Shown one piece after another: positions 11,406 to 16,970 of a stretch of DNA of 45,020 nt. The stretch lies in NCBI GenBank assembly GCA_025924835.1, contig JAICHO010000004.1, positions 1-45,020 on the forward strand, given 5' to 3'. This stretch comes from Candidatus Saccharimonadota bacterium (GTDB lineage Bacteria > Patescibacteriota > Saccharimonadia > Saccharimonadales > JAICHO01). A program made the translations under genes and the position numbers. The notes beneath the pieces were generated by a model. It searched no databases. It worked only from the letters and a program-made list of their open reading frames with translations, and was not told the origin of the DNA. How positions within the stretch are numbered: position 1 is the first letter of the stretch; each line of letters starts with the position of its first letter.

Positions 11406-11809
11406 TGGCTGATAAATCCAAAAATTATTTTTATGCGTTAGGTCGGCGCAAAAGTTCTACTGCCCGTGTTCGGCTTATGAGCGGCAAAGGTCTAATTAGC
11501 GTAAACCATAAACCTGCTGCCGAGTATTTTGCTGATAGTAAGGCTATCTTGCACGAGCTAGAACGACCTTTGATCGCACTGGAAATAGAAAACAAGTACG
11601 ACGTAAGCGCAGTGGTATCAGGTGGTGGCCACAGTAGTCAATCTGATGCGATACGCCTAGGTATCGCTAAAGCGCTCGCTGTCATGAACGAAGACCTGAA
11701 GGCAACTTTACGCCGTGCCGATATGTTAGGCAGAGACCCCCGCGAAAAAGAACGCAAGAAGTTCGGCCTTAAAGGCGCCCGTAAACAACGTCAATTCACA
11801 AAACGATAG
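11405..11809 (+). CDS. rpsI: 30S ribosomal protein S9
   Basis: YFYALGRRKSSTARVRL...GLKGARKQRQFTKR. Confidence 0.98.
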   Translation: MADKSKNYFYALGRRKSSTARVRLMSGKGLISVNHKPAAEYFADSKAILHELERPLIALEIENKYDVSAVVSGGGHSSQSDAIRLGIAKALAVMNEDLKATLRRADMLGRDPREKERKKFGLKGARKQRQFTKR

Positions 11810-11826
11810 ACCTCCGCTGACAACTG

Positions 11827-11835
11827 TGTTAATAT
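11827..11835 (+). promoter_or_regulatory. candidate extended -10 element (TGtTAATAT)
   Basis: TG-N-TAATAT 8 nt upstream of the leader ATG; no good -35 seen. Confidence 0.3.
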
Positions 11836-11842
11836 ATTTGCG

Positions 11843-11908
11843 ATGTCAACAGCTAACCCAGTCGCTTCAGTCTATTGGTTTACCGACTTTATTAAGGCGG
11901 TTAGCTAG
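11843..11908 (+). CDS. putative Tyr-Trp-Phe leader peptide (21 aa)
   Basis: atg tca aca gct aac cca gtc gct tca gtc TAT TGG TTT acc gac TTT att aag gcg gtt agc tag = MSTANPVASVYWFTDFIKAVS*; sits in a trp-type attenuator upstream of aromatic amino-acid genes. Confidence 0.75.
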   Translation: MSTANPVASVYWFTDFIKAVS

Positions 11909-11955
11909 TTAAAGTGTGAACAATTTTAATCAACCGCCTCACCGGGCGGTTTTTT
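11851..11955 (+). promoter_or_regulatory. ribosome-mediated transcription attenuator of the aromatic amino-acid operon
   Basis: Segment 1 AGCTAACC (11851-11858) pairs with GGTTAGCT (11899-11906); segment 2 AGGCGGTT (11895-11902) pairs with segment 3 AACCGCCT (11932-11939); segment 3 AACCGCC (11932-11938) pairs with segment 4 GGCGGTT (11945-11951), followed by a T-tract. Confidence 0.82.
11932..11955 (+). terminator. intrinsic terminator (attenuator 3:4 stem)
   Basis: AACCGCC-tcaccg-GGCGGTT then TTTT. Confidence 0.8.
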
Positions 11956-11990
11956 AATACCAACCTAATGTATAAAGAGTAAGCAACCAA

Positions 11991-13172
11991 ATGAAAACAT
12001 TACTTTCGGGCAGAATTGGTAGCGCAGAAGAAATAGTTAGTGCGTTACCTGAACCAGATTACGAGCATAATTTTCAACCTACATACTCAAACCGTGATTA
12101 TTTGGTACAGACTGTTGGTGAACTACTTGTCACCGGAGCGGTAACTACACCTGCTCAAATCAACGCGATCACTAAGGATTTGGCTCTTGCCAGTCAACGG
12201 GGGCATGAACGTCCTATAATGATTACGGACAGTTGCTCAGAAAGCGTAAGCTTAAGAGCTGATTTTAATGCTATGGTTGGTAATGTGATTATGTCAAGAA
12301 GCCTGGTTTTAGGTATCTATGGGAACGCAATCTATTTTGGACGAAACCGCGGACAAAACACCAAGCCTAGGTCAAGTCAATTTCAGGTCTTGTCAAATGG
12401 TGTTATCGTGCCTTCATATTACGGAGACGCGGTAAACGGCTATGACCCATCGGATCGAGAACCCGATCCTAGCCGCATGGTGGCAGCGGCATCTCAGGCC
12501 AACGCCATAGAAGCCCATACACAACGCAGGCTTGGTATCCATGTGCCCGCAGCTCATGAAGCCCTGCTCTTGCCTTACGAGTTTAGCTTTGTTAGCGCCC
12601 GTGGAGGCAAACGATACCTCTTGTCTGCTGATTTACCGTGGTTAGGTAAACGAACAAATGACCCGAAAGGCCCTCATGTGCAGTTCCTGGCAACGGTTGA
12701 AAATCCGATTGGCGCTAAGATAGGTGATAATTCTGACGCCAATCATATCTCGGAACTTGCGCGCATACTTAATCCTAATAGGAGACCTGGCAGATTGCTC
12801 TTTATGCTTCGGCTTGGGAACAACGTGAAGGCTATGGACGAAATAGTCAAAGGTATCAATAAATATGCACCAGATTCTGATATTTTATATGACATGCACG
12901 GTACCACCGACCAATTACCAGACGGTACGAAAATACGGGCTGTACCTACTATTGTTGACGACATAGTACTGCTCGCGACGGTGTGTGCAAAGTATGGTCG
13001 CGCTTTGAAAGGGCTGCATCTGGAAACCCATACTGATAATTCTAGGTATGAGTGTGTTGACGAGGTAGGGCAACGACCTGCCCACAAGAGCATAGTTGAC
13101 CCCGGGCTTAACCCTAATCAGACACGACGGGTGCTACATAAGACAGCTCATTTATTCGCAGGTACTAACTGA
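11991..13172 (+). CDS. 3-deoxy-7-phosphoheptulonate (DAHP) synthase, class II, divergent
   Basis: Class II-like motifs: KPRSSQ, PDPSRMVAAASQAN, HEALLLPYE, ENPIGAKIG, DMHGTTDQL, GLHLETHTDNSRYECVD, VDPGLNPNQ. The expected C/H/E/D metal ligands appear retained. Confidence 0.85.
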   Translation: MKTLLSGRIGSAEEIVSALPEPDYEHNFQPTYSNRDYLVQTVGELLVTGAVTTPAQINAITKDLALASQRGHERPIMITDSCSESVSLRADFNAMVGNVIMSRSLVLGIYGNAIYFGRNRGQNTKPRSSQFQVLSNGVIVPSYYGDAVNGYDPSDREPDPSRMVAAASQANAIEAHTQRRLGIHVPAAHEALLLPYEFSFVSARGGKRYLLSADLPWLGKRTNDPKGPHVQFLATVENPIGAKIGDNSDANHISELARILNPNRRPGRLLFMLRLGNNVKAMDEIVKGINKYAPDSDILYDMHGTTDQLPDGTKIRAVPTIVDDIVLLATVCAKYGRALKGLHLETHTDNSRYECVDEVGQRPAHKSIVDPGLNPNQTRRVLHKTAHLFAGTN

Positions 13173-13918
13173 TGGAGTTAGGTAGTTTTGGAATAGTTGG
13201 CTACGGTGTATTCGGGGAATTACTAACAGAATTATTAGCGCCACATGCTAAGGTCGTAATAAGCAGTCGCAGGGAAATTCCGGCCTATGATCTGCCCGCT
13301 AATGTAATGGTCGGCTCATTGGCCGAAGCCGCTAAGTGCGATGTGCTTATTTTGTGCAATGAACTCGCTGCATTGGAGGCAGACTGCAAAAAACTGGCGA
13401 CGTTAGTAAAACCGGCCACAGTTGTTATGGATGTATGCTCAGTTAAACTGTTGCCGGCACAAATTATGCGCGATAACCTTAGCGACAAGTGCAGAATATT
13501 AGCAACACATCCATTATTTGGTCCGCAAAGCGTTCCAAAAGGTGACGGCCACGGCAAAAAAATAGTCTGGCATGAGGTATCTGGCGGACCGTTTCCTAAC
13601 CTGGAGGACTTTTTTGGCAAAACCTTGGGTCTCAAAATCATCAAAATGCTCCCCGAAGAGCATGATAAACAAATGGCGTGGGTGCACAGTTTAACTTTTT
13701 TTATAGGCCGCGGTCTTTTGGAACTGAATCCACCAGAGTCCGAGCTTTCAACCAACTACTACGAACGCTTACTTAGTGCTGTTGACGTGGAAAAACATCA
13801 TAGCTATGAATTGTTCAGATCTATTCAATTGGGCAATATTTATTCTGGTCAAGTACGAAAGGACTTACTCCGAATACTGCAGTCGCTTGACGAGCAACTG
13901 CTTGAGGATCATATATGA
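13172..13918 (+). CDS. tyrA: prephenate dehydrogenase / arogenate dehydrogenase-like
   Basis: Rossmann GIVGYGVFGELLTELL; D(V)CSVK, THPLFGPQS motifs; operon context. Confidence 0.88.
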   Translation: MELGSFGIVGYGVFGELLTELLAPHAKVVISSRREIPAYDLPANVMVGSLAEAAKCDVLILCNELAALEADCKKLATLVKPATVVMDVCSVKLLPAQIMRDNLSDKCRILATHPLFGPQSVPKGDGHGKKIVWHEVSGGPFPNLEDFFGKTLGLKIIKMLPEEHDKQMAWVHSLTFFIGRGLLELNPPESELSTNYYERLLSAVDVEKHHSYELFRSIQLGNIYSGQVRKDLLRILQSLDEQLLEDHI

Positions 13919-14976
13919 GTCAGTTAACCGAGCTTGAATCGACGCGTGAGAAAATAAATGGCATTGATGACGCGATCTTAGCGCTGCTAAAATCCCGTGG
14001 TGAATTGGCACTCCATGTCAAAAAGCTCAAAGCTGATGGAGTTATCTATAAACCCGACCGCGAGGCAGAAATTATCCGCCGCGTACTTGATGCCAATAAC
14101 GGGCCATTATCCGATAAAGCCATAGTGTCAATCTACAGGGAAATTATTAGCTCCTGCCGTAATCTTCAGAAAACACTTATGGCTGCTTATCTGGGTCCAG
14201 AAGGCACCTATAGCCACGAAGCAGCCTTGAAGCTGTTTGGTAATACGGCAGAATTAATCCCCGAACTGTCATTGTCGGAAGTCGTACAAGCAGCCGAGAA
14301 AGGGACGGCAGATATGGCGTTATTGCCCGTAGAAAATTCTACAGAAGGTGCGGTCATCGAAACCCACCGGTTATTATTAAAAAGTGATCTGAAGATATGC
14401 GCTGAATTTATACTACCCGTCAATCACTGCCTGCTCACCACAGCTAAAAATTTGTCGGATATTAGGTTTGTACATGCTCATCCGCAAGCGCTCGGACAAT
14501 GCCGCGAATGGCTGCAGCTCCATGTGCCAACAGCAGAATTAATAAACGAGGCTAGCAATGGCCAGGCTGTATTACACATAAAGAAAAAGCCTTCTCGCGC
14601 GGCGATCGCCAGCTCGCAAGCATCGGTCATATTTGATGTGCCGGTCTTTATGTCGGGTATTAGTGACTCCGGCAACAATCAAACACGTTTTATTGTTCTG
14701 GGACAAAGCGCCACAGCGCCGACCGGCAGGGATAAAACCAGCATCATTTGCAGCGTTCGTGATAAAGTAGGCGCTTTGCACGAACTGTTGTCAATTTTAG
14801 CTAAAAATAAAGTGAACTTGGTACGGCTGGAATCACAGCCTCACGCTGACCATGAATATGTATTTTATATGGACATAGAAGGCCACCAGGGTACGGCTAC
14901 TATTGCCAAGGCGCTTGATGAGTTAAATGTGGCCGCCAAAACATGTAAAATATTAGGGTCATACCCCAAAGGTTAA
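13915..14976 (+). CDS. pheA: bifunctional chorismate mutase / prephenate dehydratase
   Basis: N-terminal AroQ-type CM (REKINGIDDAILALLKSRGELALHVKKLK), PDT domain (AAYLGPEGTYSHEAAL, LPVENSTEGAV), C-terminal ACT domain. Confidence 0.95.
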   Translation: MSQLTELESTREKINGIDDAILALLKSRGELALHVKKLKADGVIYKPDREAEIIRRVLDANNGPLSDKAIVSIYREIISSCRNLQKTLMAAYLGPEGTYSHEAALKLFGNTAELIPELSLSEVVQAAEKGTADMALLPVENSTEGAVIETHRLLLKSDLKICAEFILPVNHCLLTTAKNLSDIRFVHAHPQALGQCREWLQLHVPTAELINEASNGQAVLHIKKKPSRAAIASSQASVIFDVPVFMSGISDSGNNQTRFIVLGQSATAPTGRDKTSIICSVRDKVGALHELLSILAKNKVNLVRLESQPHADHEYVFYMDIEGHQGTATIAKALDELNVAAKTCKILGSYPKG

Positions 14977-14978
14977 AT

Positions 14979-15884
14979 ATGCCTGCGTTTAAGCCATACC
15001 CTTTTGCTTTTATACAAAATACGGTGAAGCCTATAGAGGAAGCCACCATATCTATCATGACCAACGCTCTGCATTATGGCGGCGGAATATTTGGTGGGCT
15101 TAAAGCATACGATACGCCCAAAGGCATGGGCATATTCAGACTTGACGATCACCTAGCTCGCATGCAGACTAGCGCCAAGATCTTACGATTCCCTTATACT
15201 TTTAATAACAAAGTAGTTAGTCAACAAATTATCGATCTTGCCACCAAAAATAAACTTACCGGGAAAACCTATATACGGCCTATCCTGTATCGCAGCGACA
15301 CCCAGCTCTCACCCGATATTTCTGGTGAATACGACTTGGCAATTTATATGCTAGAAATGACCGCGGATTATCTGGCTACTAGTGATGGGCTTTCGGTTTG
15401 TGTTTCATCCTGGCAGCGCAATAGTGATAACGCCTTGCCGCCACGTACCAAAGCCACGGGCGGATACTTAAATTCTGCACTTGCAATCCATGATGCCAAA
15501 CAAGGCGGTTACGATTCTGCCATTATGCTAAATCATCGTGGCGAAGTAAGTGAAGGCGCTGTTATGAATTTGTTCCTGGTAAAAAATGGCATGTTGGTTA
15601 CACCATCAATGGAAGCGGATATTTTAGAAGGCATAACCCGGCGTACGATTATGGAACTAGCAGTTGAACTGGGTATTTCTGTGCAGGAGCGTCCTGTCAG
15701 CCGCAGCGAACTTTATAGCGCAGACGAACTTTTCTTTTGCGGTACAGCTGTTGAGATATCGTGGTGCAAATCAGTAGACAATGTAGAAATCAGTGCCCAC
15801 ACAGGTCACATTACAGCCAAATTAACACAGGCCTTCGCCTCACTGCCCAAAACGCACCCTCATCTCTACACTTTATTGGGATAG
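14979..15884 (+). CDS. ilvE: class IV (branched-chain type) aminotransferase
   Basis: TNALHYGGGIFGGLKAY..., RTKATGGYLNSALA, GEVSEGAVMNLF, LEGITRRTI motifs. Confidence 0.9.
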   Translation: MPAFKPYPFAFIQNTVKPIEEATISIMTNALHYGGGIFGGLKAYDTPKGMGIFRLDDHLARMQTSAKILRFPYTFNNKVVSQQIIDLATKNKLTGKTYIRPILYRSDTQLSPDISGEYDLAIYMLEMTADYLATSDGLSVCVSSWQRNSDNALPPRTKATGGYLNSALAIHDAKQGGYDSAIMLNHRGEVSEGAVMNLFLVKNGMLVTPSMEADILEGITRRTIMELAVELGISVQERPVSRSELYSADELFFCGTAVEISWCKSVDNVEISAHTGHITAKLTQAFASLPKTHPHLYTLLG

Positions 15885-15950: not shown

Positions 15951-16970
15951 ATGGCTAAACAGGTAATCCTCACCGGTCTCCGAGCTAATAATGGATTGCA
16001 TATCGGCAACTATTTGGGCGCATTACTACCTATGGTTGATATGGCAAATAAACACGCTGCCGAATATCAAATTAATCTGTTTGTGCCTGATTTGCATAGC
16101 TTTACAACTCCGATTGACCATATGCAGTTGTATGAGCAGACCATTAACAACTTAAAGATATTTGTTGCCGCCGGACTTGATTTAAATAATCCTAATATAC
16201 ATATTTACCGACAAAGTTTCATACCAGCCCATAGTGAGCTGACGTGGATTCTGGACTGTTTCACTGGATTTGGTGAAATGTCTCGTATGACCCAATTTAA
16301 AGATAAATCAGATAAACTATCCGAGGACAGAATAAGCGTCGGTCTTTTTAATTATCCGGTGCTTATGGCGGCTGATATTTTGCTGTATGGTGCCAGTTAT
16401 GTACCGGTCGGCGACGATCAGTCGCAGCATATTGAATTTACTCGTGATATTGCTGAGCGGATGAATGCCAAGTTTGGCGAGCTTTTTGTGGTTCCTAAGC
16501 CCGTCAAAGAACAACATGCTTTTTTTGGCAAAGACCAAGGCTTGCGTATCCGCGATCTGACCGACCCACATAAAAAAATGAGTAAAAGCGACGAAACGGG
16601 CAAAGGTGTCGTTTTTTTGGGTGACAGCGCTGATACAGCCAAACGAAAGATTATAGGCGCCGCAACCGACTCACTGAATGAAGTCCGGCACGATTATACA
16701 GCGCAACCCGGCGTAAGCAATCTGCTGGACATTCTGACTTTGCTTGGGGGTAATGCACAAGATTTTGTAGGGCAGAACCAATATGGCCCCCTAAAATCAG
16801 CTGTGGCTGAAAAAGTCGCGGTATTTTTGGATCAGTTTCAGGGGAGCCTAAAACATGTGGATACATCGGCATTGACGCACAAACTAGAGACCAGCGAAGT
16901 GGCCATGAACGCTCAAGCGAGTCAGACACTCTATAGGGTGCAAAAAGCTGTTGGATTGAGAGTTGCATAA
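15951..16970 (+). CDS. trpS: tryptophanyl-tRNA synthetase
   Basis: TGLRANNGLHIGNYLGAL (HIGN), KMSKSDE (KMSKS). Confidence 0.97.
   Translation: MAKQVILTGLRANNGLHIGNYLGALLPMVDMANKHAAEYQINLFVPDLHSFTTPIDHMQLYEQTINNLKIFVAAGLDLNNPNIHIYRQSFIPAHSELTWILDCFTGFGEMSRMTQFKDKSDKLSEDRISVGLFNYPVLMAADILLYGASYVPVGDDQSQHIEFTRDIAERMNAKFGELFVVPKPVKEQHAFFGKDQGLRIRDLTDPHKKMSKSDETGKGVVFLGDSADTAKRKIIGAATDSLNEVRHDYTAQPGVSNLLDILTLLGGNAQDFVGQNQYGPLKSAVAEKVAVFLDQFQGSLKHVDTSALTHKLETSEVAMNAQASQTLYRVQKAVGLRVA

Follow-up and report, generated by a model that had tools for sequence, protein, structure and literature searches.

The window analysed here is a 45,020-nucleotide stretch of genomic DNA from a Candidatus Saccharimonadota bacterium, in which rpsI, ending at position 11809, adjoins on the 5' side a short leader region that is followed by the operon listed in Table 1. 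The first structural gene encodes a short form of class II DAHP synthase (DAHPS) that is clear kin of solved class II enzymes (PDB 5uxm, 6bmc and 2b7o). The initial annotation of this DNA had named DAHP synthase, TyrA, PheA and an aminotransferase as the downstream genes; these were all recovered, and the operon also contains trpS, which had not been listed. Elsewhere in the window, positions 41860-41999 match the Rfam L10_leader model (RF00557, 53.2 bits).

Table 1. Features of the leader region and of the downstream operon, in window coordinates.
Feature	Position	Strand	Remarks
Putative leader promoter	11807-11835	+	-35 TAGACC 11807-11812; 17-nt spacer; extended -10 TGT-TAATAT, hexamer 11830-11835
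Leader peptide ORF, MSTANPVASVYWFTDFIKAVS	11843-11908	+	ATG 11843, stop TAG 11906-11908; no Shine-Dalgarno; probably leaderless
Segment 1 of the initial annotation, AGCTAACC	11851-11858	+	pairs with 11899-11906; outside the family-conserved helix
Regulatory codons TAT TGG TTT (Tyr-Trp-Phe)	11873-11881	+	[YF]WFT kept in the family
Segment 1, family-conserved, ACCGACTT	11882-11889	+	pairs with AAGGCGGT 11894-11901, one A-G mismatch
Segment 2, AAGGCGGTT	11894-11902	+	partner is segment 1 or segment 3
Segment 3, AACCGCCT	11932-11939	+	partner is segment 2 (antiterminator) or segment 4 (terminator)
Segment 4 (GGGCGGTT, 11944-11951) and T-tract to 11955	11944-11955	+	intrinsic terminator
Class II (type II) DAHP synthase, short form	11991-13172	+	TIGR01358 E 1.5e-45, under equivalog cutoff
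TyrA-like prephenate dehydrogenase	13172-13918	+	best 85.9 bits; all below equivalog cutoffs
PheA, chorismate mutase-prephenate dehydratase	13915-14976	+	245 bits (cutoff 219); CM_P2 70.2 (cutoff 69.55)
Branched-chain-type aminotransferase (IlvE-like)	14979-15884	+	
TrpS, tryptophan-tRNA ligase	15951-16970	+	TIGR00233 264 bits (cutoff 177); constant operon member in relatives

Direct reading of the leader confirmed the 21-codon ORF with tandem TAT TGG TTT codons described in the initial annotation. The exact complementarity that it had reported between AGGCGGTT (11895-11902) and segment 3 was also found, as was its terminator with a T-run (stem 11932-11951), although the arm given as 11945-11951 had to be corrected by one position. 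Its segment 1 held up in part: AGCTAACC is indeed the exact complement of GGTTAGCT (11899-11906), and this pairing is also present in the fold of the full leader, but no conserved block appears at 11851-11858 when the region is aligned with relatives. We rejected it as the conserved segment 1, as it pairs in the window only and the conserved 1:2 helix lies just 3' of the Tyr-Trp-Phe codons; it is a possible local addition. The proposed folding, run on 11820-11965, gave -35.0 kcal/mol (z = -2.0). Among 20,000 dinucleotide shuffles of 11810-11990, consecutive Tyr-Trp-Phe codons in an ATG ORF arose in 36 and a comparable terminator in 49, and none contained either this ORF together with a terminator or a terminator together with a perfect antiterminator.

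The constituents of a trp-type attenuator are present at this locus: a short ORF, predicted to be translated, with codons for the end products, an intrinsic terminator (11932-11955) ahead of the first structural gene, a mutually exclusive antiterminator that shares segment 3 and, according to folding, a segment 2 that is freed by a stalled ribosome and covered by one that has finished. The window contains no match to the Rfam Trp_leader model RF00513 (gathering score 41 bits); in one relative (L096) a sub-threshold match of 25.9 bits falls exactly on the leader. No Rfam T-box match was detected in the window or in any of five relatives.

In order to examine homologues free of any leader-based selection, leaders were picked by the presence of a downstream class II DAHPS gene. 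This enzyme is rare (6 of the 401 genomes of the Saccharibacteria order), and together with metagenome loci the set came to eight independent, readable upstream regions. Their leaders are MSTANPVASVYWFTDFIKAVS (window), MLRMHMQSNQYWFTGLNEGGEFCTYA (G189), MLRKRINKAYWFTGQSWTVYSA (G052), MLTYPFWFTNSC (G050), MGKMLPLYYTWNFNYFFRKRRFSLY (G064), MNIVSNTYFTSYYYASKAGFLL (L012), MSLRKMTTWFNPYFFTEGGKVSF (L013) and MVRQSFSFTGFFYVEETELVLE (L014-L017). All eight are rich in aromatic residues (Tyr, Trp and Phe make up 44 of 173) and each has a terminator behind it, the 5' arm of which can instead form an antiterminator with the 3' end of the leader. These homologues keep both the aromatic codons and the exclusive pairings, the joint loss of which had been named in the initial annotation as the outcome that would count against it. 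At distant DAHPS-like loci (e.g. L019, L020, L022-L026 and L034, from metagenome and genome scans), no such leader was seen in the upstream regions inspected.

A pattern search combining the Trp-Phe-Thr core with both pairings matched 39 of the 401 genomes, 35 of which look real; the matches in G051, G198, G164 and G332 look like chance in coding sequence and were dropped. A covariance model built from 34 leaders then matched 110 genomes, belonging to 85 of the 157 genera of the order. The tetrapeptide [YF]WFT is near-fixed and the codons TAT TGG TTT ACC are fixed in many family leaders; since both searches contain TGGTTYAC and GGCGGT/ACCGCC, the conservation of these letters among the matches is partly by construction. 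Of the 32 loci newly identified by the pattern, 28 have trpS downstream, and in three of the remaining four the contig ends first; trpS is also among the next four ORFs in 73 of 92 further loci found by the model. The genes that separate the leader from trpS vary: some encode class I DAHPS, class II DAHPS, prephenate dehydratase, TyrA, TrpE or a TrpB-like enzyme, others an Asp/Glu racemase, an aspartoacylase-like protein, an M20 peptidase or a LysE exporter, and many are uncharacterised ORFs of 62-115 amino acids. The constant downstream member in most relatives is trpS and not aromatic biosynthesis; DAHPS as the defining partner is ruled out by the rarity of the class II enzyme.

Alignment of these regions, as the initial annotation had suggested, revealed kept aromatic codons and compensatory changes in helices 1:2 and 3:4, but not in the outer pairs of helix 2:3. 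Family segment 1 has the consensus ACCGACNN, directly 3' of the Phe codon, and its partner is NNGGCGGT. Over the 34 leaders, one distal pair of helix 1:2 is found as AU (18), UA (4), CG (2) and UG (1), and another as CG (15), GC (4), AU (3), GU (2), UA (2) and UG (1). Taken together, helices 1:2 and 3:4 have 90.8% of cells paired, compared to 26-55% in slid controls, and 22 cells changed on both sides, compared to 7.2 in shuffles (0/500); because the leaders share descent, shuffle and Fisher values overstate significance. The six-pair core of helix 2:3 is kept in at least 34 of 36 loci and is nearly invariant, its second pair changing from G-C to A-U in some rows. Outside this core covariation was not above shuffles (545/2000), and the outer pairs were dropped as evidence.

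Promoter-like hexamers occur at set distances from the leader start codon. Across 120 leaders, hexamers resembling a -10 box are most frequent 6-9 nt 5' of the ATG, with 34 leaders at 7 nt as against about 4-9 when shuffled, and TTGACA-like -35 hexamers peak at 30-32 nt. A Shine-Dalgarno-like motif precedes only 4 of 126 family leaders. This spacing and the scarcity of such motifs suggest that the leader is probably leaderless, with its ATG at +1, and the transcription start in the window is accordingly predicted at 11843.

For each codon of a leader, we folded the RNA 3' of a ribosome stalled at that codon, up to segment 3, with a mask of 13 nt beyond the A site. In all eight DAHPS-anchored leaders the antiterminator was likely across the aromatic codons and collapsed one to three codons later. 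Over 125 leaders, its median probability was 0.86 with the ribosome stalled at the most permissive codon and 0.03 with the ribosome at the stop. In the six-codon stretch that ends at the switch, 330 of 746 residues are aromatic, compared to 310 of 2119 elsewhere; the aromatic fraction is 0.56-0.73 at a distance of 2-4 codons ahead of the switch and about 0.05-0.14 where that distance is eight codons or greater. These modelled folds support the stall and stop geometry put forward in the initial annotation.

The codon content of the leaders appears to track the gene that comes next, with Tyr before tyrA, Trp before trpE or trpB and all three aromatic residues before DAHP synthase, in small numbers of cases (tyrA n = 2, trpE n = 1, trpB n = 2). 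The two leaders directly 5' of tyrA, whose TyrA products are identified with E of about 1e-45, are Tyr-only (MINLNVAQSYLVPYYLAD, L208) or Tyr-dominated (STYYVRIYLADYYSVS, L191), and both lack Trp. The trpE leader reads W..W (L036:6551), that of a TrpB-like enzyme WRW (L210) and that of a TrpB-TrpS pair from another class WW..W (L219). Leaders of class I DAHPS genes contain Tyr, Trp and Phe with one exception, and an FFF leader (L192:1530) precedes an uncharacterised gene of 212 amino acids.

The eight DAHPS-anchored leaders, the 110 genomes, the covarying helices 1:2 and 3:4 and the gene-tracking codons uphold the earlier proposal of attenuation by a Tyr-Trp-Phe leader, and we consider it highly probable that a trp-type, ribosome-mediated transcription attenuator occupies 11843-11955 and reads the charging of Tyr, Trp and Phe tRNAs. 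The transcript would begin at the leader ATG or no more than about 2 nt away from it, and a ribosome would load there, on a leaderless start. Scarcity of any one of these charged tRNAs would make the ribosome stall on TAT TGG TTT and cover segment 1, leaving segment 2 free to pair with segment 3, and transcription would read through into DAHPS-tyrA-pheA-AT-trpS. If all three were charged, it would reach the stop codon and cover segment 2, segments 3 and 4 would pair and transcription would end near 11955. We infer that stalling, termination and readthrough take this course in vivo, with any one of the amino acids sufficient by itself. For free RNA the picture is mixed: helix 1:2 may aid termination in some relatives, but in the fold model the free RNA of the window favours the antiterminator.

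Ribosome-mediated attenuation is a classical mechanism, and the E. coli trpL, pheL and pheM (pheST) leaders, like RF00513, likewise combine a leader ORF carrying regulatory codons with four segments, an antiterminator and an intrinsic terminator; pheST is in addition a tRNA synthetase operon under attenuation, like the trpS operons of Saccharibacteria. The E. coli attenuators read one amino acid and possess a ribosome-binding site, whereas the window leader would read three, has no Shine-Dalgarno sequence and has no Rfam match at gathering score. Closer to the window leader in codon content, the aroR leader of Corynebacterium glutamicum carries Phe-Tyr-Phe codons before aroF (PMC11802643, PMC4046766), hence aromatic codons before a DAHP synthase gene as here, but it contains no Trp codon and C. 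glutamicum has a full shikimate pathway. In Streptomyces avermitilis a candidate attenuator precedes trpS2, a tryptophanyl-tRNA synthetase gene (PMC1262725); it was predicted for Trp in some Streptomyces, while the Saccharibacteria leaders occur across the order with variable genes between leader and trpS. Three related amino acids are also combined in IlvL, the leader of C. glutamicum ilvBNC, with Ile, Val and Leu codons, a start site one nucleotide from the ATG and no ribosome-binding site (PMC11857589). IlvL thus provides a leaderless precedent, although its codons are branched-chain and not aromatic, and its phylum and sequence are different.

The initial annotation had suspected that a single leader combining all three aromatic codons in such a genome was novel. 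In view of aroR and trpS2 it is not wholly new; what appears undescribed is a codon-programmable leader family in Saccharibacteria. Our examination of the open-access literature found no leader-peptide attenuator described for Saccharibacteria or for any other bacteria of the candidate phyla, and within that literature this appears to be the first such family from the candidate phyla radiation and among the very few leaders that read three amino acids at once.

That trpS is the most constant downstream gene, and Trp the most enriched residue (149 of 2889 versus a background of 0.5%), might indicate that the element is basically a trpS leader whose flanking Tyr and Phe codons do little. The aroR precedent points the same way: Phe limitation acts there, and Tyr availability is without effect despite the Tyr codons (PMC11802643), so that three codons need not mean three signals. 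We nevertheless regard a Trp-dominated attenuator as unlikely. Tyr and Phe are themselves enriched 2.5-fold and 2.9-fold and lie at the same switch position, substitutions ahead of Trp are mostly Tyr to Phe, and two DAHPS leaders (L012 and L016) are rich in Phe and Tyr without any Trp. The tyrA leaders are Tyr-rich and also lack Trp, and Tyr codons therefore appear to be selected.

The near-fixation of [YF]WFT and of its codons would also be expected if YWFT were a TnaC-like nascent-chain stalling motif that senses a metabolite and not tRNA charging. Such an arrest peptide is very improbable, since outside the core of the family the motif is lost while aromatic richness is kept (YYTWNFNYFF, YFTSYYY, WFNPYFF, FFY), and the Thr ACC codon is accounted for by segment 2 pairing. 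Codon content that follows the next gene is what a codon-reading attenuator predicts, and would be unexpected for a specific arrest peptide. A terminator 3' of rpsI would be unremarkable, and the whole element could be just that, crossed by a chance ORF. We give this explanation almost no weight: it is refuted by the conservation of the leader in 110 genomes and runs against the shuffle odds and the leader's own promoter signature, and leaders also occur with no rpsI upstream, before tyrA (L208, L191) and between DAHPS and trpE (L036:6551).

Since its codons match the gene controlled, the leader of the three-amino-acid attenuator that we favour would work as a label, indicating that the cell treats its DAHP synthase as a source of aromatic amino acids. 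This enzyme looks orphaned, because the DAHPS-bearing genomes (G000, G050, G052, G064 and G189) lack AroB, AroA and AroC, the steps covered by our search. Neither chorismate synthase (AroC) nor dehydroquinate synthase (AroB) was found in the five or six DAHPS-bearing genomes, which are 92-99% complete, and PF00275 has a single match in each, MurA-like in both cases inspected. Prephenate dehydratase occurs in two of these genomes and TrpE in one. The window genome retains the two ends of the aromatic pathway, and the three middle steps searched for are missing. Separately, two MurA-like enzymes with an N-terminal helix-turn-helix-like region were noticed in Saccharibacteria (L042 and L043).

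Saccharibacteria are tiny, parasitic bacteria, and one may speculate that the DAHPS product is exchanged with the host. In its full form, in which the leader family is the main aromatic control in Saccharibacteria, driving orphan DAHPS, PheA, TyrA and TrpE, and intermediates are exchanged with the shikimate pathway of the host, we hold this idea to be quite doubtful; if true, a starving episymbiont would raise aromatic amino-acid synthesis in its host. Through the leader, the puzzling partial amino-acid pathways of episymbionts become open to direct test.

Weak matches to the covariance model were obtained in other classes of the phylum (E 1e-5 to 1e-3), some with the same anatomy and different stems, such as L219 with WW..W before trpB-trpS. 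Leaders in L215, L216, L218 and L219 carry YWFT, FYFWFT or WW..W, with differing stem sequences. Because some matches share anatomy but differ in their stems, convergence is indistinguishable from common descent, and either is compatible with them. LysE-type translocator genes lie 3' of aromatic leaders both in Saccharibacteria (L181:931-1548) and in another class (L216:2950-3576). In the interval between leader and trpS, small ORFs of about 64-87 amino acids were noted at L089:845-1036, L090:4199-4405, L078:899-1120, L093:1486-1737 and L099:2567-2827; several share an IEVxPxDxRxPxEI-like motif and may form one undescribed family. Lastly, Tyr codons in 126 family leaders are TAT 157 times and TAC 46 times, compared to 1377 and 1085 in nearby genes, an excess that possibly reflects a preference for the wobble-read codon.
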